Assembly: GCF_029953285.1 (NCBI RefSeq)
Contig: NZ_JASAOI010000088.1
Location: 1 to 52,468, forward strand
DNA: 52,468 nt
Origin: Yinghuangia seranimata
GTDB lineage: Bacteria; Actinomycetota; Actinomycetes; Streptomycetales; Streptomycetaceae
Direction of reading: 5' to 3'
The translations under genes were made by a program, and so were the position numbers. Every line of letters starts with the position of its first letter. Within the stretch, counting starts at the first letter, position 1. The notes beneath the pieces were generated by a model. The model had not been told where the DNA came from and ran no database searches. It saw only the letters and a program-made list of their open reading frames with translations. Below, in pieces: positions 147-20,830 of this stretch.

Positions 147-1376
147 TTACCTCAGGCGAACCGGCAGCGCCTTGTGGCCGTTCGAGATGAACGACTCCAT
201 GGGCTCCAGCTCGTCGGCCGGCACCGCGAGCGCCAGGTTTGGGAACCGGTCGAACAGCGCCGGCAGCGCGATCCGCGCCTCGAGCCGGGCCAGCGGCGCG
301 CCGAGGCAGAAGTGCACGCCGTGGCCGAACGCCAGGTGGTCCTTGGCCTCGCGCTTCAGGTCGAACGCGCCCGCGTCGGCGCCGTGCACGCCGGGGTCGC
401 GGCCCGCCGCGGCATACGCGATCAGGATCGGCTCGCCCTTCGCGATCACGAGGCCTTCGCCCAGGTCGATGTCCTCCACCGCGTAGCGCAACGGCAGGTT
501 CGCGACCGGCGCTTCGGCGCGCAGCGTCTCCTCGATGACGTCGTCCCACGTCACTTCGCCCGAGCGCACGAGCGCGAGCTGCTCGGGGTGGGTGAGCAGC
601 GCGTGGATCGCGTTGTCGAGCAGGTTGACGGTCGTCTCGTGACCGGCCGACAGCATGAGGATCAGCGTGTCGAGCAGCTCGGTCTCGCTCAGCGCCGAGT
701 CGTCACCCTCCTCGCGCGCCGCGATCAGGCCCGACGTCATGTCGTCGCCCGGGTTCACGCGCTTCTCCGCCACCAGCGCGGTGAGGACCTTGTACAGCTT
801 CAGCTGGCCCTCGGCGACCTCCTCGGCCGTCGCCGTCGTCCGGAAGATCGTGTCGACCGCCGTGTGCAGGTCGCCCTGCGCCTCGGCCGGCACCCCGAAC
901 AGCTCGCAGATCACGCTGATCGGCAGCGGATACGCGAACTCCGTGCGCAGGTCCGCCGCTTCCCCCGCCGGGGTGGCGGCGAGCCGGTCCAGCAGCCGCG
1001 CGGTGATCTCCTCGATGCGCGGCTGCAGCGCGGCGGTCCGGCGTGCCGTGAACGCCTTGGACACCAGCGTGCGCAGGCGCTTGTGGTCGCCTCCGTACGC
1101 CGTGAACATGTTCTTCACCGCGACCCAGATCTGGAGCGGCCAGTCCGCCGGAATCTCGCCGTTGATCCACGCCGGCCAGTGCTGCCGGGTGTCCTTGGAC
1201 ACGCGCGGGTCGGTCAGCAGCCGCTTGATCAGCGCCTGGCTGTTTACCGACCATGCCTCCACACCGCCAGGGAGTGCCACCAGCGTCGCCGGGCCTCGGG
1301 CGCGGAGTCGCTCGTTCTCACCGTGGATGTCGCGCCCCGCGGGGTCGAGGACGTAGGCGCCGGACTGTTCTGCCAC
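147..1376 (-). CDS. Cytochrome P450, CYP154-like (conservon-associated)
   Basis: A 409-aa soluble haem monooxygenase, last gene of the conservon operon. All P450 hallmarks are visible: I-helix AGHETT, K-helix ETLR (about residues 283-286), and the haem loop FGHGVHFCLG with the thiolate Cys at about residue 357. The N-terminus (VLDPAGRDIHGE) is typical of the CYP154-type P450s that end many Streptomyces conservons. I chose the GTG start at 1376 because GGAG lies 7 nt upstream and the N-terminus fits the family. This start lies inside the 3' end of the preceding P450 gene, so the two frames overlap by 133 nt. Substrate and redox partners cannot be read from the sequence. Confidence 0.9.
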   Translation of the reverse strand: MAEQSGAYVLDPAGRDIHGENERLRARGPATLVALPGGVEAWSVNSQALIKRLLTDPRVSKDTRQHWPAWINGEIPADWPLQIWVAVKNMFTAYGGDHKRLRTLVSKAFTARRTAALQPRIEEITARLLDRLAATPAGEAADLRTEFAYPLPISVICELFGVPAEAQGDLHTAVDTIFRTTATAEEVAEGQLKLYKVLTALVAEKRVNPGDDMTSGLIAAREEGDDSALSETELLDTLILMLSAGHETTVNLLDNAIHALLTHPEQLALVRSGEVTWDDVIEETLRAEAPVANLPLRYAVEDIDLGEGLVIAKGEPILIAYAAAGRDPGVHGADAGAFDLKREAKDHLAFGHGVHFCLGAPLARLEARIALPALFDRFPNLALAVPADELEPMESFISNGHKALPVRLR

Positions 1377-2716
1377 GGGCTTTCTCCAAGCTGTGGTTCG
1401 GGTGTGGCGGAAGGAGGAGCAGTCGTGGGAGCCGTCTGCGGAGCCCTGGGCGCCGGGCGGACGACAGTCAACGGCGGGTACACCACCGGAAGTTCGGCGA
1501 GCGCGCGGTGGAAGGGGCCGGGCCGCCAGCGCAACCTCTCGGCAGGCACGGCGAGTTCGATGTCCGGCAGGCGGTCGAGCAGCCGCTCGATCGCGACCGT
1601 CGCGATCAGCCGAGCCCCGTCCTTCGCCGGGCAGGTGTGCGGCCCCGCGCTCCACGCCAGGTGCGCGCGGTTCCCGGCCCGGTGGTCGGTGGTCAGCGCC
1701 GGATCGGTGTTGGCCGCCGCGAAGCTGACCACCACCGGCTCGCCCTCGCGCAGCCGTACGCCGTGCAGGTCCACGTCGCGCACCGGGAAGTGCACGCCGT
1801 AGTTCGCCATCGGCGGGTCGGACCACAGGACTTCGTCGAGCGCGTCCTCGATCGGCATGCTGCCGCCGGACAGGTCGCCCGCGAAGCGGTCGTCGGACAG
1901 CAGCAGCCGCAGGCTGTTCGAGATGAGGTTCTGCTGCGGCTCGGTGCCCGCGCCCATCAGCACCACCAGCTGGTGGACCATCTCCTCGTCCGTCAGATCC
2001 GCCGGATGCGCCATCAGCCACGACGTCACGTCCGCGCCCGGCTGGGCGCGCTTGAGCGCGACGAGTTCGACCATGCCCTCGAGCAGCAGCGCGTTGCTCT
2101 TCTCGGCGTCGACCACGTCGAAGATGCCGGACATGCCGCGCACCAGCTTCTCGGCGATGGCCGACGGACAGCCGAACATCTCCATGAAGACCAGCAGCGG
2201 CACCACCAGCGCGTACTCGCGGCGCAGGTCGGTCTTGCCGTCGGGGCCGAAACCGTCGATCAGCGTGTCCGCGGCGCGCCGCACGTACTCGCGCAGCTCG
2301 ATCGGGTCCACCCGGTCCAGGCTGTCGGAGATGGCGGAGCGGAATCGGGCGTGCTCCTCACCGTCCGTGAACAGCGCGTTCGGCCGGTAGCCCATCATCG
2401 GCATGACGGGGTGGGTCGGCGGGATTCGGCCGTCAAGGACGGCCTTCCAGCGGCGCGGGTCCTTCGAGAACGTCTCGGGGCTGCGCAGCAGTTGCAGGGC
2501 CGCCTCGTACGACACGACCAGCGACGCCTCGACGTCCTCGGCGACCAGCACCGGCGCGACCGGTCCGAGCGCGCGCAGTTCGGCGTACACGGCGGCCGGG
2601 TCGTCGGCGAACGCCGCGCCGTAGAGCGGGACTCCGGAGGGAGCGGGGCGGTCCTGGCCGGCGTGAGCGGGACAGCCCGGCGGCGGGACGGCGTCGAGCG
2701 AAGGCTCGGTGGACAA
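1244..2716 (-). CDS. Cytochrome P450, CYP157-like, lacking the ExxR motif
   Basis: A 490-aa P450-fold protein with a TTG start at 2716, 1 nt after the GTPase stop and preceded by AGGAGG. The haem loop is WSAGPHTCPAK (Cys at about residue 362), with Trp in place of the usual Phe and Ala two residues after the Cys. The K-helix reads EVLW (about 295-298) instead of ExxR. The I-helix reads GAGTEP and lacks the usual Thr. Loss of ExxR is a known trait of the CYP157 family, which is paired with CYP154 in conservons. The P450 domain ends near residue 418. A Pro/Ala/Ser-rich tail of about 70 aa follows and overlaps the next gene; this may be real or may mark a frameshift near the 3' end. Confidence 0.88.
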   Translation of the reverse strand: MSTEPSLDAVPPPGCPAHAGQDRPAPSGVPLYGAAFADDPAAVYAELRALGPVAPVLVAEDVEASLVVSYEAALQLLRSPETFSKDPRRWKAVLDGRIPPTHPVMPMMGYRPNALFTDGEEHARFRSAISDSLDRVDPIELREYVRRAADTLIDGFGPDGKTDLRREYALVVPLLVFMEMFGCPSAIAEKLVRGMSGIFDVVDAEKSNALLLEGMVELVALKRAQPGADVTSWLMAHPADLTDEEMVHQLVVLMGAGTEPQQNLISNSLRLLLSDDRFAGDLSGGSMPIEDALDEVLWSDPPMANYGVHFPVRDVDLHGVRLREGEPVVVSFAAANTDPALTTDHRAGNRAHLAWSAGPHTCPAKDGARLIATVAIERLLDRLPDIELAVPAERLRWRPGPFHRALAELPVVYPPLTVVRPAPRAPQTAPTTAPPSATPEPQLGESPWQNSPAPTSSTPRGATSTVRTSDSAPEARRRWWHSLAVWRHGR

Positions 2717-2717
2717 C

Positions 2718-3356
2718 TCAGGCCTCCTGGCGGGAACGGGTGAGCAGGTACTGCACGAGCGCGATCAACGCCTCGGTGGACGACCGCGGATCGCGCGCGT
2801 CGCACGTCACCAGCGGGGTCTCGGGCAGCAGGTCGAGCGCCTCGCGGATCTCTCCGTCCGAGTGGTACGGCGAGCCGGTGAACCGGTTCACCGCCACCGC
2901 GTACGGGAGCCCGTGCTCCTCCAACAGGCCCATCACCTCGAACGACTGGTCGAGCCTGCGGGTGTCGACGAGCACCAGCGCGCCCAGCGCACCGCGCGTC
3001 ATGTCCTGCCACAACCGGGTGAAGCGCTGCTGCCCGGGAGCGCCGAACAGGTAGAGCACGAGCTGGTCGTTGAGGGTCAGCCGGCCGAAGTCCATGGCGA
3101 CCGTGGTGGTGGTCTTGTCCGGCACACCGCTCAGGTCGTCGACGAGTGCGCCGGCCTGCGTCATCTTCTCCTCGGTGTGCAGCGGGCGGATCTCCGACAG
3201 CGTCCCGACGAACGTCGTCTTGCCAACCGCGAAAGGGCCCACCACGAGGAGCTTCACCGAGGTGCGGACGCTGGGCCGCAGGTACATCGCGGAGGGCGGG
3301 GCCCCCGCGGGGATGCGGGGCCTGTCGTCCGGCTCAGAGACGAGCACGGAGTCCAT
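2718..3356 (-). CDS. cvnD: Conservon GTP-binding protein (MglA-like, CvnD)
   Basis: A 212-aa small Ras-like GTPase. The Walker A/G1 motif GPFAVGKTT lies near residues 40-48, the G3 region reads FGAPGQQRF, and the G4 position reads VNRF rather than NKxD, as in conservon and MglA-like GTPases. The ATG at 3356 follows GGAGG with 7-nt spacing and overlaps the DUF742 gene by 23 nt; a longer upstream frame has no such site. It is the fourth gene of the conservon and probably switches nucleotide state in a membrane-associated complex with the kinase-like, Roadblock and DUF742 proteins. That role is family knowledge, not visible here. Confidence 0.93.
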   Translation of the reverse strand: MDSVLVSEPDDRPRIPAGAPPSAMYLRPSVRTSVKLLVVGPFAVGKTTFVGTLSEIRPLHTEEKMTQAGALVDDLSGVPDKTTTTVAMDFGRLTLNDQLVLYLFGAPGQQRFTRLWQDMTRGALGALVLVDTRRLDQSFEVMGLLEEHGLPYAVAVNRFTGSPYHSDGEIREALDLLPETPLVTCDARDPRSSTEALIALVQYLLTRSRQEA

Positions 3357-3825
3357 CGAGCACCTCCTGAAGCAGCTTGGCCTCGGGGAGCTCGGCCGCG
3401 GGTATGGGGGCACGGGTGAGGATGTGCCCGGAGTCGAGGAGATCGGCGAGCAGCACCTTCGTGACGCTCACCGGAAGCCCGAGGTACCCGGCGACCTCGG
3501 CGACCGACAGCGAACCGGGGCGGCACAGTTCGACCAGCCGGCGCTTCTCCGGGCTCAGCCCGTTCAGCGGGCGGTCGTGCGGTGCGATCACCAGGGTCAC
3601 CAGGTCGAACGTGTTGCGGCTCGGGTGCGCGCGGCCGTCGGTCACGACGTACGGACGCACCAAACCCTTGCCGCGGCCGCGGGAGTTGCCCGAGGAGCCG
3701 GCTGCGGGACCGCCGGTCCAGGCGCCCGTAGGACCGCCGCCTGCAACGCCGTTCGCAACGTTCGCGCCGTTCCCGCCGCGGGGCGTGCCGCCGACGGGGC
3801 CGGCCCCGGACGGCCGCCAGCTCAT
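3334..3825 (-). CDS. cvnC: DUF742 protein (CvnC)
   Basis: A 163-aa protein. Residues 1-50 are a Gly/Ala/Pro/Asn-rich disordered leader. The DUF742 core follows (LVRPYVVTDGR through SVAEVAGYLGLPVSVTKVLLADL and on to the end), with a winged-helix-like signature. It starts with ATG at 3825 in a 4-nt ATGA overlap with the Roadblock gene and overlaps the GTPase gene by 23 nt, so translation is probably coupled. It is the third conservon component. Its exact biochemical role is not established. Confidence 0.93.
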   Translation of the reverse strand: MSWRPSGAGPVGGTPRGGNGANVANGVAGGGPTGAWTGGPAAGSSGNSRGRGKGLVRPYVVTDGRAHPSRNTFDLVTLVIAPHDRPLNGLSPEKRRLVELCRPGSLSVAEVAGYLGLPVSVTKVLLADLLDSGHILTRAPIPAAELPEAKLLQEVLDGLRARL

Positions 3826-4235
3826 GCGAGGAGCCCCGTGCTCTGCCGCGGCGGCGTCGTCAGCTCCTTGCCGAGCCGGTCCACCAGCTTCTGCATCGCG
3901 TACGTCACGGCCTCCATGTCGACGTGCTCCGAGGCCGACACCGCCAGGTACGCGCCCGCGCCCGCCGCGACCAGGAACACGTAGCCGCCGTCGAACTCGA
4001 CCAGGGTCTGCCGCCAGCGGGTCTCCGTCGGCCCGGCGAACTCCGTGGTGCTGCGGCTGATCGACTGCAGACCGGACAGCGCGGCCGCCTGGCGGTCGGC
4101 GTCGTCGCGGCCGATGCCGCGCGAGTGCGCGCGCAGCATGCCGTCGGCGGACAGCAGGATCGCGTGCCGCGCCTCGGGGACCTTCAGGGCTTCGTCGAGC
4201 ATCCAGCCCAGTTCGTTCTCACCGTGGTCGTTCAT
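3822..4235 (-). CDS. cvnB: Roadblock/LC7 domain protein (CvnB)
   Basis: A 137-aa single-domain protein of the Roadblock/LC7 fold. The core reads GWMLDEALKVPEARHAILLSADG near the N-terminus, followed by the helix DRQAAALSGLQSISRS and the strand YVFLVAAGAGAYLAV. Proteins of this type in conservons dimerise and act with the CvnD-type GTPase, by analogy with MglB and MglA. It starts with ATG at 4235, overlapping the kinase-like gene by 4 nt, and its stop overlaps the DUF742 start by 4 nt. Length and position match the second gene of known conservons. Confidence 0.94.
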   Translation of the reverse strand: MNDHGENELGWMLDEALKVPEARHAILLSADGMLRAHSRGIGRDDADRQAAALSGLQSISRSTTEFAGPTETRWRQTLVEFDGGYVFLVAAGAGAYLAVSASEHVDMEAVTYAMQKLVDRLGKELTTPPRQSTGLLA

Positions 4236-5740
4236 GAGTGTGCGATCCCCTTGTCCTTGTCGTCCCCCGTGCTGTCCCCCCTGGCGTCTCCCGAAGAGCC
4301 GCCCGCCGCTTCCGCGGCGTTGCCGCGGACCGCCTCACGGCCCGAGCGCGTGCCGCGGGCGAACGCGCCCATGCGCGCGGCGGTTTCGTGGACGGAGCGG
4401 GTGGGCGCGTGGTCCTCGGCGTGCGCGCCTTCGTGTGCGGCGGCCTGCCGCGCCGAGCCGTGCGCCGCTGCCGGACCGGACGCGGACTCCGGCGCGGCCG
4501 GGCCCGGTTCGACGAGCACCGCGGCGGCCACGGCCGGATCCACCTCGCGCCGACGGCGCTTCGGCAGACCGGTCAGCGTGGCGCCGACGACCTCGGCCGC
4601 GGGGTGCGGGCCGCCGCCGAGGTGCGGGGCGGGCGTGGGCGGCGCGGACTGCGGTGCGGACTGCGGTGCGGACTGCGGTGCGGACTGCGGCGCGGCGGGC
4701 GGGGGCACCGCGGTGCGGACGTCCCGCGCCATGCCGGCGGTCTCGTCCGGGGCGAGGTGCGTCAGCAACGCGTTGGGCAGGAAGAGCACGGCACGGACTC
4801 CGCCGTACGGGGAACGCGTGTCGACCGAGGCCTGGAATCCGTACCGCTCCGCGAGCACGCCGATCACCGCGAAGCCGAACTGCGGCGGATCGCCCAGCCG
4901 GTTGATGTCGACCGAGTCCTGACCGGACAACAGGCGCGTGGCGTGCCGTACCTCCTGCTCGTTCATCCCGACGCCCGCGTCGTCGATGACGACGCACGCG
5001 CCGTTGTGCGCGGGCTGGATGTTGACCTCGACGGCCGTGTTCGGCTGCGAGTGCCGCGCGGCGTTGTCCAGCAGCTCCGCCACGGCGAGCACGACCGGCT
5101 CCACCGCGCGGCTGACCACCGCGATCTCGACCTGCGCGTGCACCTGGACGCGTCGGTAGTCCCGGATCCGGGACTTCGCGCCGCGCGCCACGTCCGTCAA
5201 CGACGACGCCGACCGCTGCCGCCCCGGCCACGACCCGCACAGCACTGCGATCGCCTGCGCACGGCGGCCGAACTGGGCGTTCGCGTGGTCGATCTCGAGC
5301 AGGTCGCGCAGCACGTCCGGGTGGTCGTGCCGGTCCTGCATGTCTGAGATCGACATCTGCTGCTCGTTCGCCAACCCCTGCAGCGCGCGCATCGCGCCCT
5401 TCAGCGCGGCCTTGGCCGACTGGTCGGCGCGGGCCTGTGCACGGGACATCGTCGCGGCGAACCTGCTCTCCAGCAGCTGCGCGCTCGCCGCGTACGAACT
5501 GCCCTCCAGCATCGGATCGGCCACCTCGGCGGGGGGCTTGCGGCCCGCCTCGTAGTGCGGCAGCCGCACCTCGACCAGCTCACGCAGCCCCGCGTCGCGC
5601 GCGTCCACGGCGGCTTCAAGCCACAGGATCCGGCTGCGGCGCGCCGAGTTCGACGCGTACAGCCGCACAGCAAGAGCGGTGATGAGGACGGTGACCGCGA
5701 CCAGGGCCCAGAAGGCGGCGGACGGAACGCTATCTGTCAT
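4232..5740 (-). CDS. cvnA: Sensor histidine-kinase-like ATPase (CvnA)
   Basis: A 502-aa first gene of the conservon. One transmembrane helix lies near residues 8-27. A helical region follows, then a GHKL ATPase domain with the N box ELLDNAARHS, G1 DDAGVGM and a G2-like GFAVIGVLAERYG. I see no classical H-box with a phospho-accepting His. The large extracytoplasmic sensor of many conservon kinases is absent. The C-terminal 150 residues are low complexity and include four tandem PQSA units encoded by a 12-bp DNA repeat. The ATG at 5740 follows GAGGAT. The operon promoter probably lies in the 5741-6305 gap. Confidence 0.92.
   Translation of the reverse strand: MTDSVPSAAFWALVAVTVLITALAVRLYASNSARRSRILWLEAAVDARDAGLRELVEVRLPHYEAGRKPPAEVADPMLEGSSYAASAQLLESRFAATMSRAQARADQSAKAALKGAMRALQGLANEQQMSISDMQDRHDHPDVLRDLLEIDHANAQFGRRAQAIAVLCGSWPGRQRSASSLTDVARGAKSRIRDYRRVQVHAQVEIAVVSRAVEPVVLAVAELLDNAARHSQPNTAVEVNIQPAHNGACVVIDDAGVGMNEQEVRHATRLLSGQDSVDINRLGDPPQFGFAVIGVLAERYGFQASVDTRSPYGGVRAVLFLPNALLTHLAPDETAGMARDVRTAVPPPAAPQSAPQSAPQSAPQSAPPTPAPHLGGGPHPAAEVVGATLTGLPKRRRREVDPAVAAAVLVEPGPAAPESASGPAAAHGSARQAAAHEGAHAEDHAPTRSVHETAARMGAFARGTRSGREAVRGNAAEAAGGSSGDARGDSTGDDKDKGIAHS
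4640..4692. repeat. 12-bp tandem repeat inside cvnA
   Basis: The unit GCGGACTGCGGT recurs about four times in tandem. Read on the minus strand it encodes the PQSA tetrapeptide array in the C-terminal tail of the conservon kinase-like protein. Being a multiple of three, copy-number change would keep the frame. Confidence 0.85.
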
Positions 5741-6305: not shown

Positions 6306-7067
6306 ATGATTGTCGAGTACATCCGCTACACCATCGCCGAACCCGACCGCCCCGACTTCGAAGCCGCCTACGGCCGCGCCGCCCTCGCCCTCCAGGCCGC
6401 CCCGCAGTGCGTCGACTACGAACTCGCCCGCTGCGAAGAGGAACCCGGCTCCTACATCCTCCGCATCCGCTGGACGTCCACCCCCGACCACCTCGAAGGC
6501 TTCCGCAAGGGCGAGCACTTCCCGCCCTTCTTCGCCGAGATCCGCCCGTACTTCCAGGCGATCCAGGAGATGCGCCACTACGAGGTCACCGACGTCGTCG
6601 GCACCGGCGGCTCCACCCCGACCCTCTACGAATGGGCCGGCGGCGCCGAAGCCTTCGACCGCCTCTTCACCCGCTTCTACGAACACGTCGCCGAAGACCC
6701 CGACCTCGCCCCGGTCTTCGCCGGCATGGACGCCCACCACGCCCAACACGTCGCCGCCTGGCTCGGCGAGGTCTTCGGCGGCCCCTCCCTCTACAGCTCC
6801 GACCACGGCGGCCACAAACACATGGCCTCCCGCCACCTCGGCCGCAACATCACCGACGCCCAACGCCGCCGCTGGATCAACCTCCTGATGGACACCGCCG
6901 ACGAAGTAGGCCTCCCCGCCGACCCCGAGTTCCGCGCCGTCTTCGCCTACTACCTCGAATGGGGCACCCGCATGGCCCTCATCTACTCCGGCCCCAACCC
7001 CCCGCCCCTCCCCGAAACCCCCATGCCAACCTGGCACTGGAACCAAACCCCGCCCTACCTCGGCTGA
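6306..7067 (+). CDS. ABM domain-group II truncated haemoglobin fusion
   Basis: A 253-aa cytosolic two-domain protein. Residues 1-95 form an antibiotic-biosynthesis-monooxygenase-like ferredoxin fold (VEYIRYTIAEPDRPDFEAAY, then a strand SYILRIRWTS). Residues 105-235 form a truncated globin: FYEHVAEDPDLAPVFAGMD, HVAAWLGEVFGGP, then GGHKHMASRHLG with the probable proximal His, and ITDAQRRRW. Group II globins bind O2 or NO. The ABM-globin fusion is a known actinomycete architecture, so it is notable but not new. The ATG at 6306 was chosen because the ABM domain begins there; only a weak AGGGA lies upstream. Confidence 0.9.
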   Translation: MIVEYIRYTIAEPDRPDFEAAYGRAALALQAAPQCVDYELARCEEEPGSYILRIRWTSTPDHLEGFRKGEHFPPFFAEIRPYFQAIQEMRHYEVTDVVGTGGSTPTLYEWAGGAEAFDRLFTRFYEHVAEDPDLAPVFAGMDAHHAQHVAAWLGEVFGGPSLYSSDHGGHKHMASRHLGRNITDAQRRRWINLLMDTADEVGLPADPEFRAVFAYYLEWGTRMALIYSGPNPPPLPETPMPTWHWNQTPPYLG

Positions 7068-7644: not shown

Positions 7645-7653
7645 CTCATCGAG

Positions 7654-7695
7654 TGCGCCGCCAGGGACTCGAACCCCGCAGCCGCTGATTAAGAG
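7654..7695 (-). repeat. Distal attachment site: tRNA-Lys 3' fragment
   Basis: These 42 bp match 20757-20798, the 3' part of the intact tRNA-Lys(CTT) gene, at 40 of 42 positions. They run from the anticodon loop to the discriminator base in the same orientation. The rest of the tRNA (acceptor 5' strand, D arm) is absent here. This is the pattern left when a tyrosine-integrase element inserts at the 3' end of a tRNA gene. The two mismatches fall in the variable loop region. Confidence 0.88.
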
Positions 7696-7868: not shown

Positions 7869-8393
7869 TCATTGATGAGTATCGAGCGTGAGGATCACGA
7901 CCCACCACGCAATGAAGAGCACTGACGATGCGGCGGTGGCGCCAACGGCACGGCGAACATGACCCAGTTTGGCGCGAGCCCTGCGGGAGATGAACTGTGC
8001 GTGCGACCACGCCTCACGGGTCTGGATCGTGCTGCCTGCCATGTCACCGCTCTGCTGGGCCATCCACGGGAACGCCAGGCGGGTCGGGCCGGACGGAGTG
8101 GTGTTGGGTAGCAGAGCGAGCGCGACTTCAATCAGTGCCGCTGACAACAGGATAAGGACGATGGTCAGCAGGACTGCCGGTGTTGGATTGCCGACTGCGG
8201 CGTAGTGCCACGTCGCACTGACTCGTGCTGACTGGCTGAGGAGGCCGGCCGCAAGCGTGCCCAGGATCGCCACCAAATGCGCGGCCTTGGTGTCGGCATT
8301 CTCGATCCAGCGGCTGAAGTCGTCGATGGCGTGGAGCGCTGCGGCGAGTTCGGGGTCTCTCCTGGGGGCGATGCGGTGTCGCCTTACGGCCAT
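7869..8393 (-). CDS. Pycsar-type transmembrane effector (DUF5706-like)
   Basis: A 174-aa membrane protein, last gene of the element's cyclase operon. Hydrophobic helices lie near residues 37-53, 73-95 and 150-170. It has the hallmarks of Pycsar transmembrane effectors: an N-terminal DTKA motif (34-37) leading into helix 1, LAFPWMA after helix 2, and the basic stretch QFISRRARAKLGHVRRAV before the last helix. In Pycsar systems such effectors respond to cCMP or cUMP made by a partner cyclase and compromise the membrane to abort phage infection. The ATG at 8393 follows GAGGA and overlaps the upstream stop by 10 nt, implying coupled translation. The family call is from motif recall and no search was run. 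Confidence 0.7.
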   Translation of the reverse strand: MAVRRHRIAPRRDPELAAALHAIDDFSRWIENADTKAAHLVAILGTLAAGLLSQSARVSATWHYAAVGNPTPAVLLTIVLILLSAALIEVALALLPNTTPSGPTRLAFPWMAQQSGDMAGSTIQTREAWSHAQFISRRARAKLGHVRRAVGATAASSVLFIAWWVVILTLDTHQ

Positions 8394-9283
8394 GGCTGTT
8401 CCTCGTCCAGCGGGTCGGTCGCTTTGCCGTTCTCGCCAAGGAAGCCGAGCTCGCGGAGCACGCTCTCCATGGACGTACCTGAATGCGCCATCGCCACAGC
8501 GACCCACTGGCGTACCCGTTGTCGGTCGAAGTCGCTCAGCTCGGTCATGAGTTTCGTGAATTTGAGGTCGACTTCCCGCATGGGGTCAGGTGGTGGCGGC
8601 GGGAGCCGTTGCGCGTAGTCGATGATGTCCTTGATGTCGTTCGGGCGTTGTTGGAGCCAGTAGGCCAGCAACGCTGTGGGGCCGTCTTGGACGAGGCGCT
8701 GGTAGTAGTCCAAACGCAGTCGTTCGAGCTGTTGACGCTCAAGCTCCACGTCCGAGGTCCAACGGACGTCGTCCAGCTCGGCCTTACGGATCTCGGGCAT
8801 CGCCGGATCGGTGACGTCGAGATGGATATGCCCATACCCGATGCCGACCGTGTCCAGGACTGCGGCTGGTTGCAGGAACGCGTTGCACTGCTCTTGCATC
8901 GCGATCGTCGATGGCCATGATCGGTCCGCAGCGTATGCGGTCAGCCGATGCTGGATGTCGCGGCGTAGGTAGGGGACGGCATCAAGCACACGCCGGTCGA
9001 CGACCACCTGCGGGTCGTCCACCCACCAGACCAGGCTGATGTCCACGGTTTGCCCGTGATGGCGTCCTGAAGTCCCCACCTGACACGTGAAGTTGGCGGT
9101 TCGCTCACCGAGGTGGACCCAGTAGGCGTCGCGTGCGATGCGCAAAGCAGCCAGCTGTCCTCGCTGGTCGGGAGTGCCGGTGACCGGTACCAATGCGTGT
9201 GTGCGGTGCAGGGACAAGCGGTGCTTGATGTAGGCGACGAGTCGGGAGCCGACCACTGGCGTGAGCAGTCCAGAGGGTGTCAC
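8384..9283 (-). CDS. Conserved protein of unknown function, possibly SPFH-like
   Basis: A 299-aa protein in the cyclase operon. The GTG start at 9283 overlaps the stop of the STAND-like gene by 4 nt (GTGA). I do not recognise it with confidence. The central part (VDISLVWWVDDPQVVV, then YLRRDIQHRL, then a GIGYGHIHLDV strand) has the rhythm of an SPFH/Band-7 domain: a strand with DP, a helix with paired Arg, then a Gly-Ile strand. A Glu/Leu/Arg-rich helical region follows (residues 175-230). Near 230-245 the phrase GPTALLAYWLQQRPND resembles segments I associate with other actinomycete regulatory proteins. No transmembrane helix is obvious. It may scaffold the effector at the membrane; this is inference only. 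Confidence 0.55.
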   Translation of the reverse strand: MTPSGLLTPVVGSRLVAYIKHRLSLHRTHALVPVTGTPDQRGQLAALRIARDAYWVHLGERTANFTCQVGTSGRHHGQTVDISLVWWVDDPQVVVDRRVLDAVPYLRRDIQHRLTAYAADRSWPSTIAMQEQCNAFLQPAAVLDTVGIGYGHIHLDVTDPAMPEIRKAELDDVRWTSDVELERQQLERLRLDYYQRLVQDGPTALLAYWLQQRPNDIKDIIDYAQRLPPPPPDPMREVDLKFTKLMTELSDFDRQRVRQWVAVAMAHSGTSMESVLRELGFLGENGKATDPLDEEQPWP

Positions 9284-11403
9284 CGTGTGCCTCCCGGCAT
9301 CGGCAGGGGGTCTTCAAAGGCGTCGATGGCAGGCTGTAGGACATCCACGTTCACGTTGCCGCCCTCGAATGCGAGCCGCATGACGTCGTACGCCAGTCGT
9401 TCGATGCCGGCGCGCCGATTGCCGGCGAACAGTTCGACCAGCATGTCTCGGATCAATTCGGCTTCGTCACACCGGTTGGGGTCGGCTGTCGCGTCGAGCC
9501 AGCCGGTCACCAGCTGGTGGACTGCGTTGTAGCCGCCGGGCTCAGCTGCCAGCGAGCGCAACAGCGTGATGGTCTCGCCCCTGCCGCCAGGGTCCCGCAG
9601 GAGGGCGATTACCTCTGCCGTGAGTGCCGGTCCACGGGCTTGTTGCTCAGCACCGAGGAGATGTGCGGTCAAGGGGCCAACGGTTGCGGACGCCGAGCCT
9701 TCGACAAGGGAAGGCTCGTTGAGTTGCTTAACGACATCCACGAGCTCGATGACTGAGCGGGACAGCCTCAGAATGCTCATGGCCGCTTCGGTCATCACGT
9801 CGGAGTCCGGGGTGTTCGCCAGCCGGAGAAGGCGCATCAAAGCGAGCTCGGGGAAGGCTTCCCCAAAGGGACCGCCGTATGCGCGCGCAGCGGTCCATCG
9901 CAGCTCGCGTGACGCTTGGGCACTGCTCCAACTGTTGAGCAGGTGACGGACCTGGGTTGCCGTGACGGGGTCCTCCGCCGCGATGCCGAGTGCGATCGCC
10001 GCCATCTCCTGTCGGTGCCGGTCCAGTCGTCCCCAACTGCGGATGGGACGCAGGGTGTTGAAACCGGAGCCTGCTCCAGCGAGGCGGCCGGCTGTGACAC
10101 CTGCGACCTTGTGCAGGTCGCGTCGGGCGGGAGTCGCGGCCAACCAGTCAAACAGCGGCTCTCTGAGCTCGGGGTACTCCAACCAGAAGTGGTCGAGCAC
10201 CGAGGTTCCCCAATGGAGTGTGCTGAAGCGCACCGCGTCGATCCGGTAGCTGAGCGACCTGTTGCTGACGATGGACGGCAGAGACTCGCATTCCGCGTTG
10301 ATGGCGTCGAGGCGACTGCTGCGCGAGACAGGCGCCCATGATGGCGAGGTGTCAGCCCCATCGTTGTGCGGCGGCGCCACCGATGTGCTGCTCAGCCGTC
10401 CACTCAGGGCCTCAGCGCGCTCATTGACCACTGAGTAGTCGTGGCCTTCGAAGACCGCGGCTGCCAGCATCATCGCCCAGTCATCGACACGGGGGTTCTT
10501 CGCGAACCAGTCTCGGACGGCGTCGCGCCCGTGCTTTCCCAGGGTGCCCAGCACACGCGACTTGTCGTACAGCCCACGTGCAACACCGACCAGGTCCGCC
10601 GCCAAGGATGCAGCATCGGCCGGCCGGCAGTCGGCAGCGATCTGGGTGATTCGCGCGTCGACGAGATCCTGGTGATCTTGTGCCCACCTGGGGCCGAGGC
10701 GATCTGTCAGGTACTCACGCACCACGCGGTCGCCGCTCGGCGCCGCACTCTCGAACAGATACGGCTGCCAGCTTCCCGGGAGCGCGCTCCGTCCGTCCGA
10801 CGTGGTGATGACCAGGTAGGCGCCTGACTTGACGAGGATGTCGGCGAGCGTCTGAATGTCGGCGGTCGTGCAACAGGCCAGCGAGTCGAGAGCAGTTGCC
10901 TCGAACAGGTAGCCCGCTTCGCGTTGCAGCTGGGCGGAGCGCAGCGACGTCAGGTCGGAGTCGGACGCGAGAGCGGTGACCTTCTCCACCTCCTGTTCGA
11001 TCAGCAGGTGCAGGGCAAGCGTCCGCCGGCCACTATGCGCTGCGCCGTCGACGACCAGCAGGTGGGCCCTCAACATCCGCAGCGCCTGCTGGTAGCCCGG
11101 TGATTCGACAAAGACACGAGTGATGAAGTCCAGTTCCTCGCGCCGGATGGTGCCCGCGCGGACCTGGCGAACCGGGCGGGCTGTGGTCGCGCCTGTGCTT
11201 GTGACGCCGCCGTTCAGGTTGTTGGCGAAGATGACGGTCCCGGCCGAAGCCACCCGAACGGCGGCGCCCATCCAGTCAATGCCGTACGTGGCGGCATCGT
11301 CCGCGAGATCGTCGTCCTCGATGTCCGTTATGTCGTCGGCGCTGCGCGGTGGCTGCGCGTTCTCCGGCTCGTCGTCGGGGGCCTCGAAGGATTCATCCAG
11401 CAT
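9280..11403 (-). CDS. Degenerate STAND-like P-loop protein
   Basis: A 707-aa protein. Residues 1-40 are very acidic. Residues 53-75 hold a Gly/Asn-rich strand pair (GTVIFANNLNGGVTSTG) that recalls the tail of the upstream cyclase-like protein. Residues 114-135 read LLVVDGAAHSGRRTLALHLL, a Walker-A-like loop with Arg where Lys is expected. Residues 196-203 (YLVITTSD) could be a sensor strand. The remaining 500 residues look all-helical, like a repeat scaffold. This layout resembles STAND/NACHT conflict-system proteins with a weakened NTPase. The frame is open upstream, but that part is shadow of the cyclase gene; I chose ATG at 11403, an 11-nt overlap, although its ribosome binding site is weak. 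Confidence 0.65.
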   Translation of the reverse strand: MLDESFEAPDDEPENAQPPRSADDITDIEDDDLADDAATYGIDWMGAAVRVASAGTVIFANNLNGGVTSTGATTARPVRQVRAGTIRREELDFITRVFVESPGYQQALRMLRAHLLVVDGAAHSGRRTLALHLLIEQEVEKVTALASDSDLTSLRSAQLQREAGYLFEATALDSLACCTTADIQTLADILVKSGAYLVITTSDGRSALPGSWQPYLFESAAPSGDRVVREYLTDRLGPRWAQDHQDLVDARITQIAADCRPADAASLAADLVGVARGLYDKSRVLGTLGKHGRDAVRDWFAKNPRVDDWAMMLAAAVFEGHDYSVVNERAEALSGRLSSTSVAPPHNDGADTSPSWAPVSRSSRLDAINAECESLPSIVSNRSLSYRIDAVRFSTLHWGTSVLDHFWLEYPELREPLFDWLAATPARRDLHKVAGVTAGRLAGAGSGFNTLRPIRSWGRLDRHRQEMAAIALGIAAEDPVTATQVRHLLNSWSSAQASRELRWTAARAYGGPFGEAFPELALMRLLRLANTPDSDVMTEAAMSILRLSRSVIELVDVVKQLNEPSLVEGSASATVGPLTAHLLGAEQQARGPALTAEVIALLRDPGGRGETITLLRSLAAEPGGYNAVHQLVTGWLDATADPNRCDEAELIRDMLVELFAGNRRAGIERLAYDVMRLAFEGGNVNVDVLQPAIDAFEDPLPMPGGTR

Positions 11404-12220
11404 CTTGAGCACCGCCGATCTGCTTGTCGCCGTACACGTTGTCCCCCTTGTGCCCGTGCACGATGTCGCTGTTGGTCGTGTGGCTGATTCCGCCGTTGAA
11501 CGTCTCAGCCACGACCGAGGGACCTGACACACTCCCGATGTGCACCTGCCCGGCGCGCGCCGGCGATGCCGGTGGCGGAGCAGCGGTCGCTGCACTCGCT
11601 TCCGGTGTCGCTGCGGAGGCCGCGGCGGGAGCCGTCGAGGACGGGTGCCAGTCGTTGGCCGGCACATGCACCCAGACCGTCAACGTGCCGTTCTTGATCG
11701 GGGTGTCCACGCGGTGGAACATGCTTTCCTCGACCGTCTCCGCGTAGCCCTGCCCCCGCACGACGGTCCGGAACACCTGATCGGAGACCAGGAGTGCGAC
11801 GCGTGATGCCGTCGCCCTGAGCGCCTCACGGCCGACCTCGGCGTCGGACATCCGACAGACCTCGATTTTGGCGGCACCCGAGCCCTCCGCAGGGTCGATC
11901 GGGCCGCAGTGCACCGCGGCCCGCAGCCGGAGTGACGGACCGTCGAACCTGAGCGCACGCTTGCGCAGTTCCCGGTTCAGGTAATGGACTGCGTCCACGA
12001 GCAGGTGCACGCGCTCGTCGGTCAGAGTGATGATCACTCCGTCGCCGGTGTCATCACAGCGCTCTACGTCGGCGTCCCAGTCCAGACCTACGTCACCGAG
12101 CGCGGTCCGCATCACGCTGCGGATGGCTTCGCGAACGGCCGGCATCCCGATGTCGCTGGTCTTCGAGAACTTCTCCGCGTCGACGGTGATCAGCGCGCGG
12201 TACGGCGGCATCTCAACCAC
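11393..12220 (-). CDS. Class III nucleotide-cyclase-like protein
   Basis: A 275-aa protein. Residues 7-185 resemble a class III cyclase: strand ALITVDAEKFS with the first metal Asp at 14, then DDTGDGVIIT with the second Asp at 60, LRAAVHCG at 99-106, and REALRATASR where the catalytic N-x-x-A-R helix normally lies. Both metal-binding Asp positions are kept, so activity is plausible, but the substrate (ATP, GTP, CTP or UTP) cannot be read. Residues 195-220 are Ala/Pro/Ser-rich. Residues 224-275 are a Gly/Asp/His-rich strand region (FNGGISHTTNSDIVHGHKGD). The GTG at 12220 follows AGGGGGA. Next to a Pycsar-type effector it is the likely signal maker. Confidence 0.68.
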   Translation of the reverse strand: MVEMPPYRALITVDAEKFSKTSDIGMPAVREAIRSVMRTALGDVGLDWDADVERCDDTGDGVIITLTDERVHLLVDAVHYLNRELRKRALRFDGPSLRLRAAVHCGPIDPAEGSGAAKIEVCRMSDAEVGREALRATASRVALLVSDQVFRTVVRGQGYAETVEESMFHRVDTPIKNGTLTVWVHVPANDWHPSSTAPAAASAATPEASAATAAPPPASPARAGQVHIGSVSGPSVVAETFNGGISHTTNSDIVHGHKGDNVYGDKQIGGAQDAG

Positions 12221-12298
12221 ACTTCCCCCTGCGTACTCGTAGAGTCACTGAATGCATGCATCAGGTTTCCGCAGGGACCGCTCAGGTGCAGCGTACTT

Positions 12299-12994
12299 TT
12301 ACCCACTCACGGAAGGATCCGTGAGTCCGTGAGAAGCGATGCGGCGCAGCAGGTCCGGCTCCGTGATCACGAACCTCCTGTCGCGCCCCGTCGCAAGCGC
12401 GCCCGCACTCCGCAAGCTCGCGACCGCCTTGACCGCGGACTCACGGGACGCAGCCACAGCCGCTGCCAACTCCGGGTAGGTCAAACGCATTTCCAGCCGG
12501 ATGCCCTCACGGGTCTGCACCCCACACTGATCGGCCAAGTGCAGCAGTCGCTCGGCGACGCGCTGCACCACAGTCTGGGCGCGATAGCGCAGCCGATGCG
12601 TGTCGGCCTGCCGCAGACGGCGGATCATGACCAGCAACAGCGCCACCGACACCCGAGGTTGCTGCTGCAGGTAGCTCAGGAAGCCTTCCGGTGACATGGC
12701 CCAGACCTCCACAGGTCCGATCGCGTACACCGTCGCCGAGTGCGTACCGCCATCCAAAACGGCCAGCTCGCCAAAGATCTCCCCAGGTTCGCGATACGCG
12801 AGCACTACGTCGTGGCCATCCTCCGATGAAGCAACCACCTTGACCCGCCCGGCCGTTAGCAACAGTCCGTGCTCGGCAGGATCCCCCTGTCGCATCAACA
12901 CTTGACCGTCGCCGTACCGGCGTTCGCGTCCCTGAACCTTCCACTCGTCGATCTCAGCCGCCGTCAGCCGTTCACCCGCATGAGGCTCAGCCAC
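12299..12994 (-). CDS. Crp/Fnr family regulator with cyclic-nucleotide-binding domain
   Basis: A 231-aa transcription factor. Residues 20-130 form the cyclic-nucleotide-binding domain (GQVLMRQGDPAEHGLLLTAG, GEIFGELAVLDGGTHSATV). A dimer helix follows, then a winged helix with the recognition region YPELAAAVAASRESAVKAV. The phosphate-binding cassette keeps GEL but has THS where cAMP binders usually have RS, so the Arg that contacts the cyclic phosphate is replaced by His. The GTG at 12994 follows GGGAGG with 5-nt spacing. It sits 78 nt upstream of the cyclase-like gene on the same strand and may head that operon, sensing its product or phage-related stress. Confidence 0.85.
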   Translation of the reverse strand: MAEPHAGERLTAAEIDEWKVQGRERRYGDGQVLMRQGDPAEHGLLLTAGRVKVVASSEDGHDVVLAYREPGEIFGELAVLDGGTHSATVYAIGPVEVWAMSPEGFLSYLQQQPRVSVALLLVMIRRLRQADTHRLRYRAQTVVQRVAERLLHLADQCGVQTREGIRLEMRLTYPELAAAVAASRESAVKAVASLRSAGALATGRDRRFVITEPDLLRRIASHGLTDPSVSG

Positions 12995-13644: not shown

Positions 13645-15114
13645 ATGCGTGGCTCGGTCGGAGCCCCCTCCGGGAGACTGCCAGTTAGCCAGCCGAAACG
13701 CCGCAACGCGGTTTGGCGGCTGTACGATGCGCCATTGCGCCGAGATTGGGCGTTCTGGATGATGCTCGCGTGGGGTGCTCTTGCCGCAGTCTCGATCGGA
13801 ACCAGCAAGAAGACACACGGCATCCCTGTGTGGTTGGACACTCTCCTTGCGGTGCTCTTCTTTATGGCCTTCTTCGGGGTCGTGCCAGCCTGGATTCGAC
13901 TGGTTCTCCGACGGCGACGCGACAGCAAGTCTGAGCCGTCGGGTGCTCGTGCTGAAACGGGTTCGAGTGTTGGTGAGGACTCGCGGGCTGTAGCGCCGAT
14001 GGCAGTGGCGCCGCGGGCGGCCCAAGCGGCGACAGGCGCTGTCCCTGGGTGGCCAACTGCCCCAGTCCAGTTGAAGAAGCGCAGGCCGACCAGGGCGAGC
14101 GGCGCGCAAGCAGATCGCCGATTGCCAGCCACGGAGACCAGCCGCGTCGATCCACTTAGGGCACACCAGGCTGAGGCTAACGCCGAGGGCTCGACCCGCC
14201 GAAATCTGGCGGCGGCCACGCCCCACCTGGGGCATACAGGTCCGGTGCCTGTTCTCTCTTGGGCGGTGCCGTCTGGCAAGCTCCCGCACCCAGTAGCTCG
14301 CGCGATACGACGCTTGCGGCAGGCCCACACGCCTGAAGCACAGTACGACGACTTGTTGGACGCCGCCGAGACTTTGGCCATTGTTGTTTCGTGCACGGTC
14401 GCTGCATTGGTACAAAATTGGAAACCTCAGCCAGCCGATCTCCCCCTCCGGGCGACCGCGCTTTCGGTCCTTAAGGGCAAGTACTGCACCACAGCAGGCG
14501 TAATGTTCGGTTCATGGACTTCGTGGTTGCGCCGCCAGGTGACTTCCCTTGCCTACGGTCGAGAAGAAATACTGCCGGGGCTATCGGCCGCCCTGGAGGA
14601 TGGGCCGGGAAACATCGGACTCATTGAATCACTTGACGCGCTTCGTGAGGAACGGAACTGCGCTGCGCACGGGGGGCGTCCGAAGAGCCGGCCGGAAGCT
14701 GCTCTGAGAGTGCAAGAGCAGCTACCGTACTTGGACGCAGCTCTGGCCAAGACTGCTTTCATGGGAAACCTGCCGTGGATCCTCATCGAATCGTGTACAT
14801 TGCGTCGGCGCGCTGAGGTATTCGACGTGACTGCACGCGGAGTCATGGGTGACCATCCCGACTACGAGATACTTTCGTACGAGTGGGGGGCGCCTGTGGT
14901 TAATGACTGCGTTTATGTAATGAGTCCGCAGGGTCCTGCAGAGATGTCTCCTTTGATTGCAAACCTGTTTTGCCCGCGGTGTCGTGAATTGGAACTCGCG
15001 TATCTCCAGCGCATCAACAAGGCGGACGGAATGGCTCTATTGAAGAGTTTCAACAGGGGGCATGTTCTCACCAGCCGTGAGCTTGCAGAGGAATTTATGG
15101 AGCTTTCCGACTGA
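13645..15114 (+). CDS. Membrane protein with HEPN-like C-terminal domain
   Basis: A 489-aa protein of unknown function inside the element. Two transmembrane helices lie near residues 35-52 and 64-85. A basic stretch (RRRR, about 89-92) and a disordered linker to about residue 205 follow. The soluble C-terminal part contains LREERNCAAHGG at 333-344, giving an R-x4-H motif (R337, H342) in a helical setting, as in HEPN RNase domains. A CPRC pair lies near the C-terminus. HEPN toxins are common in phage defence, so a membrane-tethered RNase is plausible but unproven. Base composition is lower in GC than the chromosome. The ATG at 13645 has no clear ribosome binding site; another start may be used. 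Confidence 0.6.
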   Translation: MRGSVGAPSGRLPVSQPKRRNAVWRLYDAPLRRDWAFWMMLAWGALAAVSIGTSKKTHGIPVWLDTLLAVLFFMAFFGVVPAWIRLVLRRRRDSKSEPSGARAETGSSVGEDSRAVAPMAVAPRAAQAATGAVPGWPTAPVQLKKRRPTRASGAQADRRLPATETSRVDPLRAHQAEANAEGSTRRNLAAATPHLGHTGPVPVLSWAVPSGKLPHPVARAIRRLRQAHTPEAQYDDLLDAAETLAIVVSCTVAALVQNWKPQPADLPLRATALSVLKGKYCTTAGVMFGSWTSWLRRQVTSLAYGREEILPGLSAALEDGPGNIGLIESLDALREERNCAAHGGRPKSRPEAALRVQEQLPYLDAALAKTAFMGNLPWILIESCTLRRRAEVFDVTARGVMGDHPDYEILSYEWGAPVVNDCVYVMSPQGPAEMSPLIANLFCPRCRELELAYLQRINKADGMALLKSFNRGHVLTSRELAEEFMELSD

Positions 15115-17966: not shown

Positions 17967-19629
17967 GTGAGTGGATCGGTGTTCAAGCGGTGCGGGTGCG
18001 CGGTGCCTGTGTTGGATGCGGAAGGTGCTCCGGTACTGGATGGGCAGGGGCGTCCCAAGCGGCGTCAGCTCGGGGCGTCCTGTCCGAAGTTGAAGCGGGC
18101 GAACGGGACGTGGAACCCGGGGCACGGGACGTGGTGGTTCCTGCTGGACGTGCCGCATACGAAGTCCGCGGCTGGTGGCCAGGGTTCGGTGCGGCGCGAT
18201 CACATCCGGCAGGCCGGGCACCGCAACGAGACGGCGGCGCGGGATGCCATGGCGCACGTTCGGCTGCTGTTGGCTTTGGCGGATGGCGCGGATCGTCCCG
18301 ATGAGGTGCGGGCGCAGATCGCCAATCTGGTGCGGGCGGCGATCCGGGCCAAGCAGCCGCTCCCTGAGATCGATGACCTGAAGCGGCGGCTGCGGTCTTC
18401 GCGTCCGGTGGACCGGGTGGTGACGGTGGGGGGAGTGGCTGTGCGAATGGCTGCGGGGGAAGCGGGACATCCGGCCGGCGACGCTGCGGTGCTATGAGTC
18501 GCACCTGCGGCTGTATCTGTTGCCGCACCTGGGGCACATCCGGTTGGACCGGCTGCGTGTCGCGCACCTCCAAATCGCGTTCGCGGCGATGGAGGACGAG
18601 GCCGAGGAGATCGCGGCGAACAACGAAGCACGGCGGGTGTTGCGGGAGGCAGCAAGTAACGCGTGGTATCGGCACGACCATGTCGCGGTCCGTGCCGCGC
18701 GGGCGCAGCTGCGAGCACTGCCGCCGCATCGGATGCCGACGGGAGTTGCTGCGCGGCACAGGATCCGGGCGACGTTGCGTTCGGCGTTGTCGGATGCGGC
18801 GGCGCAGGAGCTGGTGACGATCAACGTCGCGAAGCTGCTGAAGTTGCCGTCGCCGGGCAAGGCCCGGCCGCTGGTGTGGACGGACGAGCGGGAGGCCGCG
18901 TGGCGGAAGTCGGGGGAGCGGCCGTCGTCGGTGATGGTGTGGACGGCCCGGCAGACTGCGATGTTCCTGGACCGTGCGACCCGGCATCGGGAGTTGTTCG
19001 CGATGTTTCACCTGGTCGCGGTGACGGGGCTGCGGCGTGGAGAGGTGTGCGGCTTGCGCTGGGCCAACCTGGACTTCCACGAGGCCACAGGCACGCTCCA
19101 TGTGGGGGAGCAGATCGTGCAGATCGGGTGGGACACGCAGTTCGGAAAGCCCAAGTCCGATGCGGGGGAGCGCACGATCGCGTTGTCGGCGGAGACGGTG
19201 GAGGTGTTGCGGCAGCACCGGCAGCGGGAGAGTGCGCGTCGGGCGAAGTATGGCGAGGGGTGGATCGACTCCGGGTTGGTGTTCACTGGGGCGGATGGCG
19301 GGCCGCTGCACCCAGCCCGGGTGAGTGATCTGTTCCAACAGCTCGGGCGGGAGGCGGGGTTGCCGCCGATCCGGCTGCACGACCTGCGGCATGGCGCGGC
19401 GACGCATGCGCTGACCGCGGGGGTCGACGTGAAGGTGGTGCAGGACATGCTGGGCCACTCGTCGTCCGTGATCACACGTGACACGTACACCTCGGTCGCC
19501 ATCGAAGCGAAGCAAGCTGCTGCAGACGCTATTACCGCGCTACTGCGCGCTGCCGCGCCAGCCAAGGTGAAGGCGAACCGGGAGAACGGCGGCAATGCAG
19601 GCAGTAGTCAAGACGGCGCGTGTGCATGA
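17967..19629 (+). pseudogene. Tyrosine integrase with +1 frameshift
   Basis: A tyrosine recombinase for integration into tRNA-Lys. The GTG at 17967 follows GGGAG and begins SGSVFKRCGC, a common N-terminus of actinomycete integrases. The frame changes within a run of six G at 18428-18433; with five G the protein would read through (VTVGEWLCEWL) for about 554 aa. The core-binding part reads IRPATLRCYESHLRLYL. Catalytic motifs are all present after the shift: TGLRRGEV, GKPKSDAGERTI, HDLRHGAATH, LGHSSSVITRDTY. It points toward the tRNA. It could be a true mutation, a sequencing error in the homopolymer, or translational slippage. Confidence 0.9.
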
Positions 19630-20739: not shown

Positions 20740-20756
20740 CGTGTACCGCTTGCTTG

Positions 20757-20830
20757 TGCGCCGCCAGGGACTCGAACCCCGGACCCGCTGATTAAGAGTC
20801 AGCTGCTCTAACCAACTGAGCTAGCGGCGC
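20757..20830 (-). tRNA. tRNA-Lys(CTT)
   Basis: A complete cloverleaf on the minus strand. The acceptor strand GCGCCGC pairs with GCGGCGC, followed by discriminator A. The D arm is GCTC...GAGC, the anticodon stem is GCTGA/TCAGC with loop CTCTTAA (anticodon CTT), and the T arm is CGGGG-TTCGAGT-CCCTG. The CCA end is not encoded. Bases 20757-20798 double as the attachment core of the integrated element. Confidence 0.97.

Follow-up and report, generated by a model that had tools for sequence, protein, structure and literature searches.

How a nucleotide cyclase might be switched on by its neighbours is the question raised by five adjoining genes in a stretch of 52,468 nucleotides from the soil bacterium Yinghuangia seranimata (the whole of contig NZ_JASAOI010000088.1, assembly GCF_029953285.1; hereafter the window). 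Pycsar, the pyrimidine cyclase system, consists of PycC with PycTM or PycTIR, and to our knowledge the trigger of the cyclases in Pycsar-type systems is largely open. An earlier note on this DNA took the five genes for an expanded Pycsar-like operon. We found that the cyclase-like protein and the adjoining STAND-like P-loop protein (nucleoside triphosphatase, NTPase) carry matching short motifs, which suggest how a sensor-like protein might switch on a messenger-making enzyme. We assign a probability of about 0.55 to the reading that the genes form a sensor-controlled cyclic-nucleotide conflict system, in which a sensor-triggered cyclase signalosome would feed a membrane effector and a Crp regulator. 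The genes and the two motifs are as follows.

12299-12994, minus strand: Crp/Fnr-type regulator with a cyclic-nucleotide (cNMP)-binding domain, from Pfam profiles
11393-12220, minus strand: class III nucleotide cyclase-like protein of 275 residues, from the family profile
11477-11527, minus strand: C-terminal motif of the cyclase, SGPSVVAETFNGGISHT, residues 232-248, weak when taken alone (shuffle p 0.04)
9280-11403, minus strand: putative STAND-like P-loop protein (NTPase) of 707 residues with C-terminal HEAT-like repeats, from family evidence
11194-11244, minus strand: N-terminal motif of the NTPase, AGTVIFANNLNGGVTST, residues 54-70, which pairs with the cyclase motif
8384-9283, minus strand: possible SPFH/Band-7-like protein, divergent, on a weak basis
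7869-8393, minus strand: protein of the PycTM family with two transmembrane (TM) segments, a predicted membrane effector, from PADLOC and Pfam family matches

All five frames lie where the earlier note had placed them. The Crp and cyclase genes are separated by 78 nt, and the last four frames overlap by 11 nt (cyclase and NTPase, 11393-11403), 4 nt (NTPase and SPFH, 9280-9283) and 10 nt (SPFH and TM, 8384-8393). Inverted repeats sought around the start of the Crp gene and that of the cyclase gene were limited to short pairs without evident meaning.

A first scan of the genomes of 100 relatives found matches to the cyclase, SPFH-like and NTPase proteins of the window in 51, 12 and 27 genomes, respectively, and the NTPase match adjoined the SPFH match in 11 of the 12 SPFH-positive genomes. 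The discovery set consisted of 40 fetched loci and the window, 41 in all, over which the window proteins were extended into family profiles; cyclase and NTPase frames were both present in 31 of these loci. With these profiles we scored a held-out set of 80 further loci, chosen solely by a match to the SPFH profile. All five families were present in 59 of the 80 held-out loci, which depend partly on the first set since some genomes are common to both and nearly all belong to the same order. Eleven other loci lacked only the TM gene, six comprised the cyclase, NTPase and SPFH genes, one lacked only the Crp gene, two comprised the NTPase and SPFH genes on short contig-end stretches and one contained the SPFH gene alone. 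Cyclase, NTPase and SPFH genes were thus together in 77 loci, the Crp gene was present in 70 and the TM gene in 60; as the fetched sequence reached only about 1.5 kb past SPFH on the downstream side, some of the absent TM genes may have been cut off. In the complete loci, the five genes shared a single strand in 57/59 cases and followed the order CRP-cyclase-NTPase-SPFH-TM in 55/59, the TM gene being upstream of the cyclase in 4/59. Conserved five-gene neighbourhoods in relatives, which had been set beforehand as a test, are therefore borne out, and judging from this conservation the gene set is a conserved system. That the genes are chance neighbours was rejected on the frequency of the full set. 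One discovery locus, L087 (G044:C1:1221000-1239000), contains a tail-less cyclase frame with an NTPase frame that begins about 2 kb away, and is perhaps a degraded or rearranged copy.

The matched motif of the cyclase tail and the NTPase head, which the earlier note does not mention, is, we think, the most informative feature of the system. When the cyclase tails were printed beside the NTPase N-termini, the paired motifs changed together locus by locus, as in L079 (RGNINSGTVHGGQSVTN in the tail, HGNINTGAVHGGQRVEN in the head) and L093 (LFLGPTSFGGHAAGRDV and VFAGPVSFGGHAAGRDV), the window pair being SGPSVVAETFNGGISHT and AGTVIFANNLNGGVTST. The match was scored by local alignment of the last 70 cyclase residues with the NTPase head, and cognate partners were compared with permuted ones. 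In 30 discovery loci, the cognate mean was 59.4 versus 35.8 for permuted partners (standard deviation 1.9, maximum 45.6 in 20000 permutations), the cognate being row-best in 10/30 and column-best in 15/30. In 72 held-out loci, the corresponding means were 76.6 and 44.0 (standard deviation 1.9, maximum 53.1 in 20000), and the cognate was within the best five in 36/72, for rows and columns alike. Ungapped scoring agreed (51.3 versus 32.4 in the discovery set, 71.0 versus 40.2 in the held-out set). By these measures, the C-terminus of the cyclase and the N-terminus of the NTPase share a locus-specific short Gly/Val-rich motif.

None of the other segments compared gave a match of similar strength. 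Over 102 loci, tail against head gave a z score of 21.6, whereas six other tail comparisons (with the NTPase body, the NTPase C-terminus, Crp, two SPFH regions and TM; N 74-102) gave z scores from -1.3 to 2.1, and the cyclase core against the NTPase head gave 1.8. Among genomes with at least two usable pairs, grouped by hand, the cognate score exceeded that of the cross-pairing in all 13 comparisons from nine genomes. Common composition is an unlikely cause of the match, given the control z scores and the same-genome result. Kinship alone was also rejected: permutation within clusters of related held-out cyclases (3000 permutations each) reduced the effect and did not remove it, the permuted mean being 61.8 at a similarity of 0.5 (standard deviation 1.4, maximum 67.0) and 67.0 at 0.6 (maximum 72.2), compared with the cognate 76.6. 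When the tails were shuffled, 75 of the 102 loci reached p 0.05 and 65 reached p 0.01. In low-scoring loci, the best local alignment often fell on a Pro/Ala linker instead of the motif. A longer, charged match of tail and head (e.g. RIDRRSR with ILETRKR), unlike the Gly-rich motifs, was seen in L104, L112 and the Streptomyces coelicoflavus plasmid locus L261, and a second kind of tail-head coupling may exist.

In the 48 loci with a core score of at least 60, the matched core was enriched in Gly, Val, Ile, Asn and Phe and depleted in Pro, Ala, Glu and Lys relative to the rest of the tail. Two explanations of such a motif have to be weighed. It may belong to an NLR-type amyloid signalosome with a cyclase partner, in which a prion-like receptor head would seed the cyclase tail and the clustering would start messenger synthesis; we entertain this tentatively, at rather less than even odds. 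Alternatively, the tail and the head might recruit the cyclase by folding into an ordinary hetero-complex, such as a small beta-zipper or beta-roll, with neither amyloid nor templating involved. Sequence alone cannot distinguish the two, and the motif is both short (median core of 24.5 residues in the held-out set) and varied; however, both partners bear the same motif rather than complementary ones, which fits homotypic stacking, and the Gly/Val/Asn-rich, Pro-poor composition also speaks against a folded complex. We regard the folded complex, too, as a possible explanation that falls somewhat short of an even chance.

Family-level evidence was needed for most gene labels because, in Pfam, single-protein searches were strong only for Crp. 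The window cyclase alone had no match in Pfam, in PADLOC or, by phmmer, in PDB, and its best NCBIfam match had an E-value of 0.68; none of 29 family members matched Pfam. The cyclase family profile, in contrast, matched the class III cyclases 3mr7 (E 4e-10), 5d0g (7.3e-8) and Ma1120 (1.8e-7) in PDB, and the uridylate cyclase 8jsz only at E 0.82. The class III assignment proposed earlier is upheld in this way, and by profile the family is one of class III nucleotide cyclases. Among 112 family proteins, both Asp residues of what we take to be the metal site are invariant (window codons 12179-12181 and 12041-12043), as are the Arg of the NxxxR motif, R100, G59, G106 and G115. The Asn position of NxxxR is occupied by Asn in 75, Asp in 29 and Ile in three of the 112 proteins, and the position three before GD by Glu in 53, Ala in 30 and Lys in eight. 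If our naming of the catalytic sites holds and a Lys before GD is, as we assume, the adenine selector, the majority of the family are probably not plain adenylate cyclases. Structure prediction from a pair of sequences gave a model of the cyclase too poor for use (mean pLDDT 53.7), the order of strands and helices being compatible with a class III core; the Embleya scabrispora locus L224 entered the two structure alignments only.

The NTPase was called a STAND-like sensor in the earlier note. Its STAND likeness is consistent with nSTAND3 matches in 5/26 family members, and HEAT_2 was matched in 3/26; designed alpha-repeat proteins were among the top matches of the family profile in PDB. The P-loop of that description is degenerate, as detailed below; in the window, the Walker A-like sequence is GAAHSGRRT at 11020-11046.

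The Crp/Fnr identity of 12299-12994 is certain from its profile matches (cNMP_binding E 1.2e-21, HTH_Crp_2 E 2.2e-11). The residues for phosphate binding are conserved in the family (Glu in 95/102, Arg in 97/102), counts that may include a few unrelated Crp genes from the neighbourhood. The predicted membrane effector of the window matched PADLOC PycTM (E 2.7e-9) and reached 11.2 bits with Pfam PycTM, below the cut-off of 27.2; Pfam PycTM (PF18967) was matched by 17 of 18 family members, in agreement with the Pycsar-effector character suggested earlier, and Asp34, Lys36, Pro96 and Lys142 were present in 79/79. In seven loci (L108, L109, L113, L217, L218, L221 and L222), the gene after the SPFH gene has a start that looks vWA-like by eye (MYVLADESGSM). 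This subgroup has no PycTM gene, and the remaining loci without TM have other membrane proteins after SPFH. The output gene may be exchangeable between loci.

For the protein encoded by 8384-9283, the earlier label SPFH-like is weakly supported. The window protein alone had no match to the Band_7 profile in Pfam, and the L111 protein matched it weakly in the same region as that of L098. By hhalign, the family of 112 proteins aligned with 25 actinobacterial Band_7 domains at E 0.0022, with the strands in register, compared with E 0.35-0.88 for four unrelated control families and E 0.025 for a smaller alignment (A2). The structure predicted from a pair of sequences was of too low a quality for use (mean pLDDT 44.7). 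We therefore call the gene SPFH-like, not SPFH, and this as a weak assignment.

The five genes sit close to one end of an integrated element, the features of which are the following.

7653-7695, no strand: direct repeat of the tRNA-Lys 3' end, the left end of the element, 41/43 bases identical
20756-20830, minus strand: tRNA-Lys (CTT), the right end of the element; repeat copy at 20756-20798
18520-19629, plus strand: tyrosine recombinase of the element, Phage_integrase family (E 3.6e-26)

The element bounded by the 43-bp tRNA-Lys direct repeat carries the five-gene set. The location inside a tRNA-Lys element, as described earlier, follows from the 3'-end repeat, the Phage_integrase gene and the lower G+C content (0.661 versus 0.710 and 0.733 in the flanks of the window). 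The element also encodes a protein of 489 residues with no match in Pfam (13645-15114). The left flank (147-5740) resembles by eye a streptomycete conservon, with what are presumably two P450 genes, a small GTPase, a roadblock-type protein and a sensor-kinase-like protein, and at 6306-7067 a single protein fuses an ABM monooxygenase domain with a bacterial-like globin.

The cyclase search was also positive for 11 plasmid records. In the S. coelicoflavus plasmid NZ_CP107978.1 (L261), the TM, Crp, cyclase and NTPase proteins matched the profiles and the SPFH-like protein matched weakly (E 2.4e-7). In the plasmid NZ_CP108260.1 of Streptomyces sp. NBC_00055 (L257), the TM gene, annotated as 'Pycsar system effector family protein', adjoins a Crp/Fnr gene and a cyclase annotated as 'hypothetical protein'; the cyclase, NTPase and SPFH genes bear this annotation in both annotated plasmid examples that were examined. 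An IS701-family transposase seems, from the annotation of NZ_CP108260.1 (6756-10259), to split the gene that follows the cyclase. Searches of viral contigs (with patterns from close relatives) and of phage records (by tblastn) gave no instance of the cyclase. The genome of the window contains two further copies of the system, L074 (G000:C25:110000-124000) and L202 (G000:C60:173-8077), in which Crp, cyclase, NTPase and SPFH were found and TM was not, L202 ending 162 bases past SPFH. Their motif pairs differ from that of the window, so that three copies with different motifs occur in one genome.

This distribution bears on whether the system serves defence at all. With the same wiring, it might serve streptomycetes as a developmental or stress switch; the NTPase-controlled cyclase would then mainly set Crp-dependent transcription, and the membrane protein would be a signalling partner and not a killer. 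The high frequency of the Crp-type regulator in the held-out loci is consistent with such a switch, as is the concentration of the five-gene system in the family and order of the window, the SPFH marker being rare phylum-wide (6 of 296 genomes, that of the window included). However, the marker was patchy among relatives (150/396), the genes are carried by an integrated element and by plasmids, three copies with different motifs coexist in the window's genome and the membrane protein belongs to the Pycsar effector family. We consider the switch unlikely, although a real contender.

For the conflict system, we infer the following course. An invasion or stress cue would be sensed by the NTPase repeats and the NTPase would oligomerise, whereupon the cyclase tails would be clustered or templated by its N-terminal motifs, in homotypic and beta-rich contacts that are perhaps amyloid-like. 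Once clustered, the cyclase would pair up and produce a cyclic mononucleotide, which would activate the two-TM protein, leading to membrane damage near an SPFH scaffold and, as the presumed outcome, defence. The same messenger would activate the Crp protein, by which transcription would be tuned in a feedback. Since motif pairs vary from locus to locus, even within one genome, each cyclase would respond chiefly to its own NTPase.

Several observations weigh against this reading. An NTPase with no cyclase found occurred in 6 of the 41 discovery loci (L076, L085, L086, L099, L100 and L101) and a cyclase without an NTPase in four (L103, L106, L107 and L110). The cognate was row-best in only 18 and column-best in only 14 of the 72 held-out loci, often not ranking first because related loci share motifs. 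It beat the partner of the nearest relative in 47 of 72 cases and lost in 25, and within-cluster permutation at a similarity of 0.7 gave 73.2 (maximum 76.5) against the cognate mean of 76.6. Tail shuffling left 27 of 102 loci short of p 0.05, L074 and L083 failing with p 0.19 each. The window pair itself is weak when taken alone: it scored 36, ranked 11th in its row and 3rd in its column among 30 loci, and had a shuffle p of 0.04. As for the proteins, the Walker A Lys is replaced by Arg in 91 of 117 NTPases and kept in 15, and a Walker B acid is not clear in this family of 117. Band_7 was matched in Pfam by only one of 19 SPFH-like members (L098, E 0.01, 24.1 bits versus a cut-off of 23.6), the hhalign probability for Band_7 was 12.8%, the SPFH-like family profile had no match in PDB and the structure models of both the SPFH-like protein and the cyclase were poor. 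Finally, the window cyclase has Ile at the Asn position of NxxxR (11864-11866), with the Arg kept (11852-11854), and the phosphate-binding cassette of the window Crp (12728-12775, GEL...THSA) has His in place of the Arg that 5/102 family members lack; given these two substitutions, the copy in the window may be an altered or weak one.

What the sequence points to is a sensor separate from the cyclase and a coupling code between the two that would be readable and swappable. If this is true, two themes that have so far been separate, homotypic NLR signalosomes and cyclic-nucleotide defence, would be joined in one gene cluster. If the amyloid explanation also holds, prion-like templating would be linked to bacterial cyclic-nucleotide immunity, and the motif specificities would be numerous and insulated from one another, with several coexisting in a genome.

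Among known systems, Pycsar likewise has an operon in which a class III cyclase is accompanied by a membrane protein of the PycTM family. The present cyclase falls outside the PycC models of PADLOC, which matched none of 29 family members and did not match the window cyclase, and the PycC match obtained in the window lies on the cNMP domain of the Crp protein, not on the cyclase; the placement in Pycsar proper is thus not sustained. The operon further differs from Pycsar in three additional genes, which encode a Crp regulator, an SPFH-like protein and a STAND-like NTPase that shares a motif with the cyclase. It could still be argued that a plain two-component Pycsar of cyclase and PycTM is present, these two being Pycsar ingredients, and that the intervening genes are unrelated. 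We consider this very improbable in view of the PycC result, of the cyclase, NTPase and SPFH trio, which in the SPFH-picked held-out loci is more frequent than TM, and of the motif, which links the cyclase to the NTPase and not to TM.

In NLR-associated amyloid signalling (BASS pairs), the available parts of two reports describe a motif at the C-terminus of a partner protein and at the N-terminus of the neighbouring NTPase (PMC7889193, PMC9815663). The partners reported there are Bell, CHAT and TIR, and the word 'cyclase' is absent from PMC7889193. The present pairs are alike in their neighbouring genes, in the layout of partner C-terminus and NTPase N-terminus, in motif families that differ between loci and in their occurrence in actinobacteria. 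They differ from the partners in those passages in that the partner is a class III nucleotide cyclase. In the open-licence literature covered, which did not extend to the primary reports on BASS and Pycsar or to the 2015 survey of nucleotide-centric systems, we recognised no description of the five-gene set or of a cyclase with a paired amyloid-type motif.

In actinobacterial conflict systems, as far as the accessible portions of the sources go, cNMP cyclases are coupled to STAND modules through the same folded EAD adaptor on both, cyclase and Band-7 domains occur together and CRP-like regulators are found near some of them (PMC7159879, PMC8195603). The ternary EAD systems so described resemble the present one in the presumed coupling of a cyclase to a STAND-like module by an element common to both, in the CRP-like partners and, if the weak SPFH assignment is right, in the Band-7-like one. 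Here, however, the adaptor appears to be a short Gly-rich motif with no Pfam match in the cyclases rather than a folded EAD, the predicted output is PycTM, no MoxR gene was seen and a vWA-like gene occurs only in one TM-less subgroup. Pfam includes EAD models. No Pfam family was matched by the 29 tailed cyclases, and no EAD was among the six families matched by 26 NTPases, several of which begin inside the head. Since coupling of the EAD type and pairs of cyclase and Band-7 have been reported in those sources, the five-gene system is not categorically new; on the present evidence it is best called a system that joins a Pycsar-type output with an NLR-type input.

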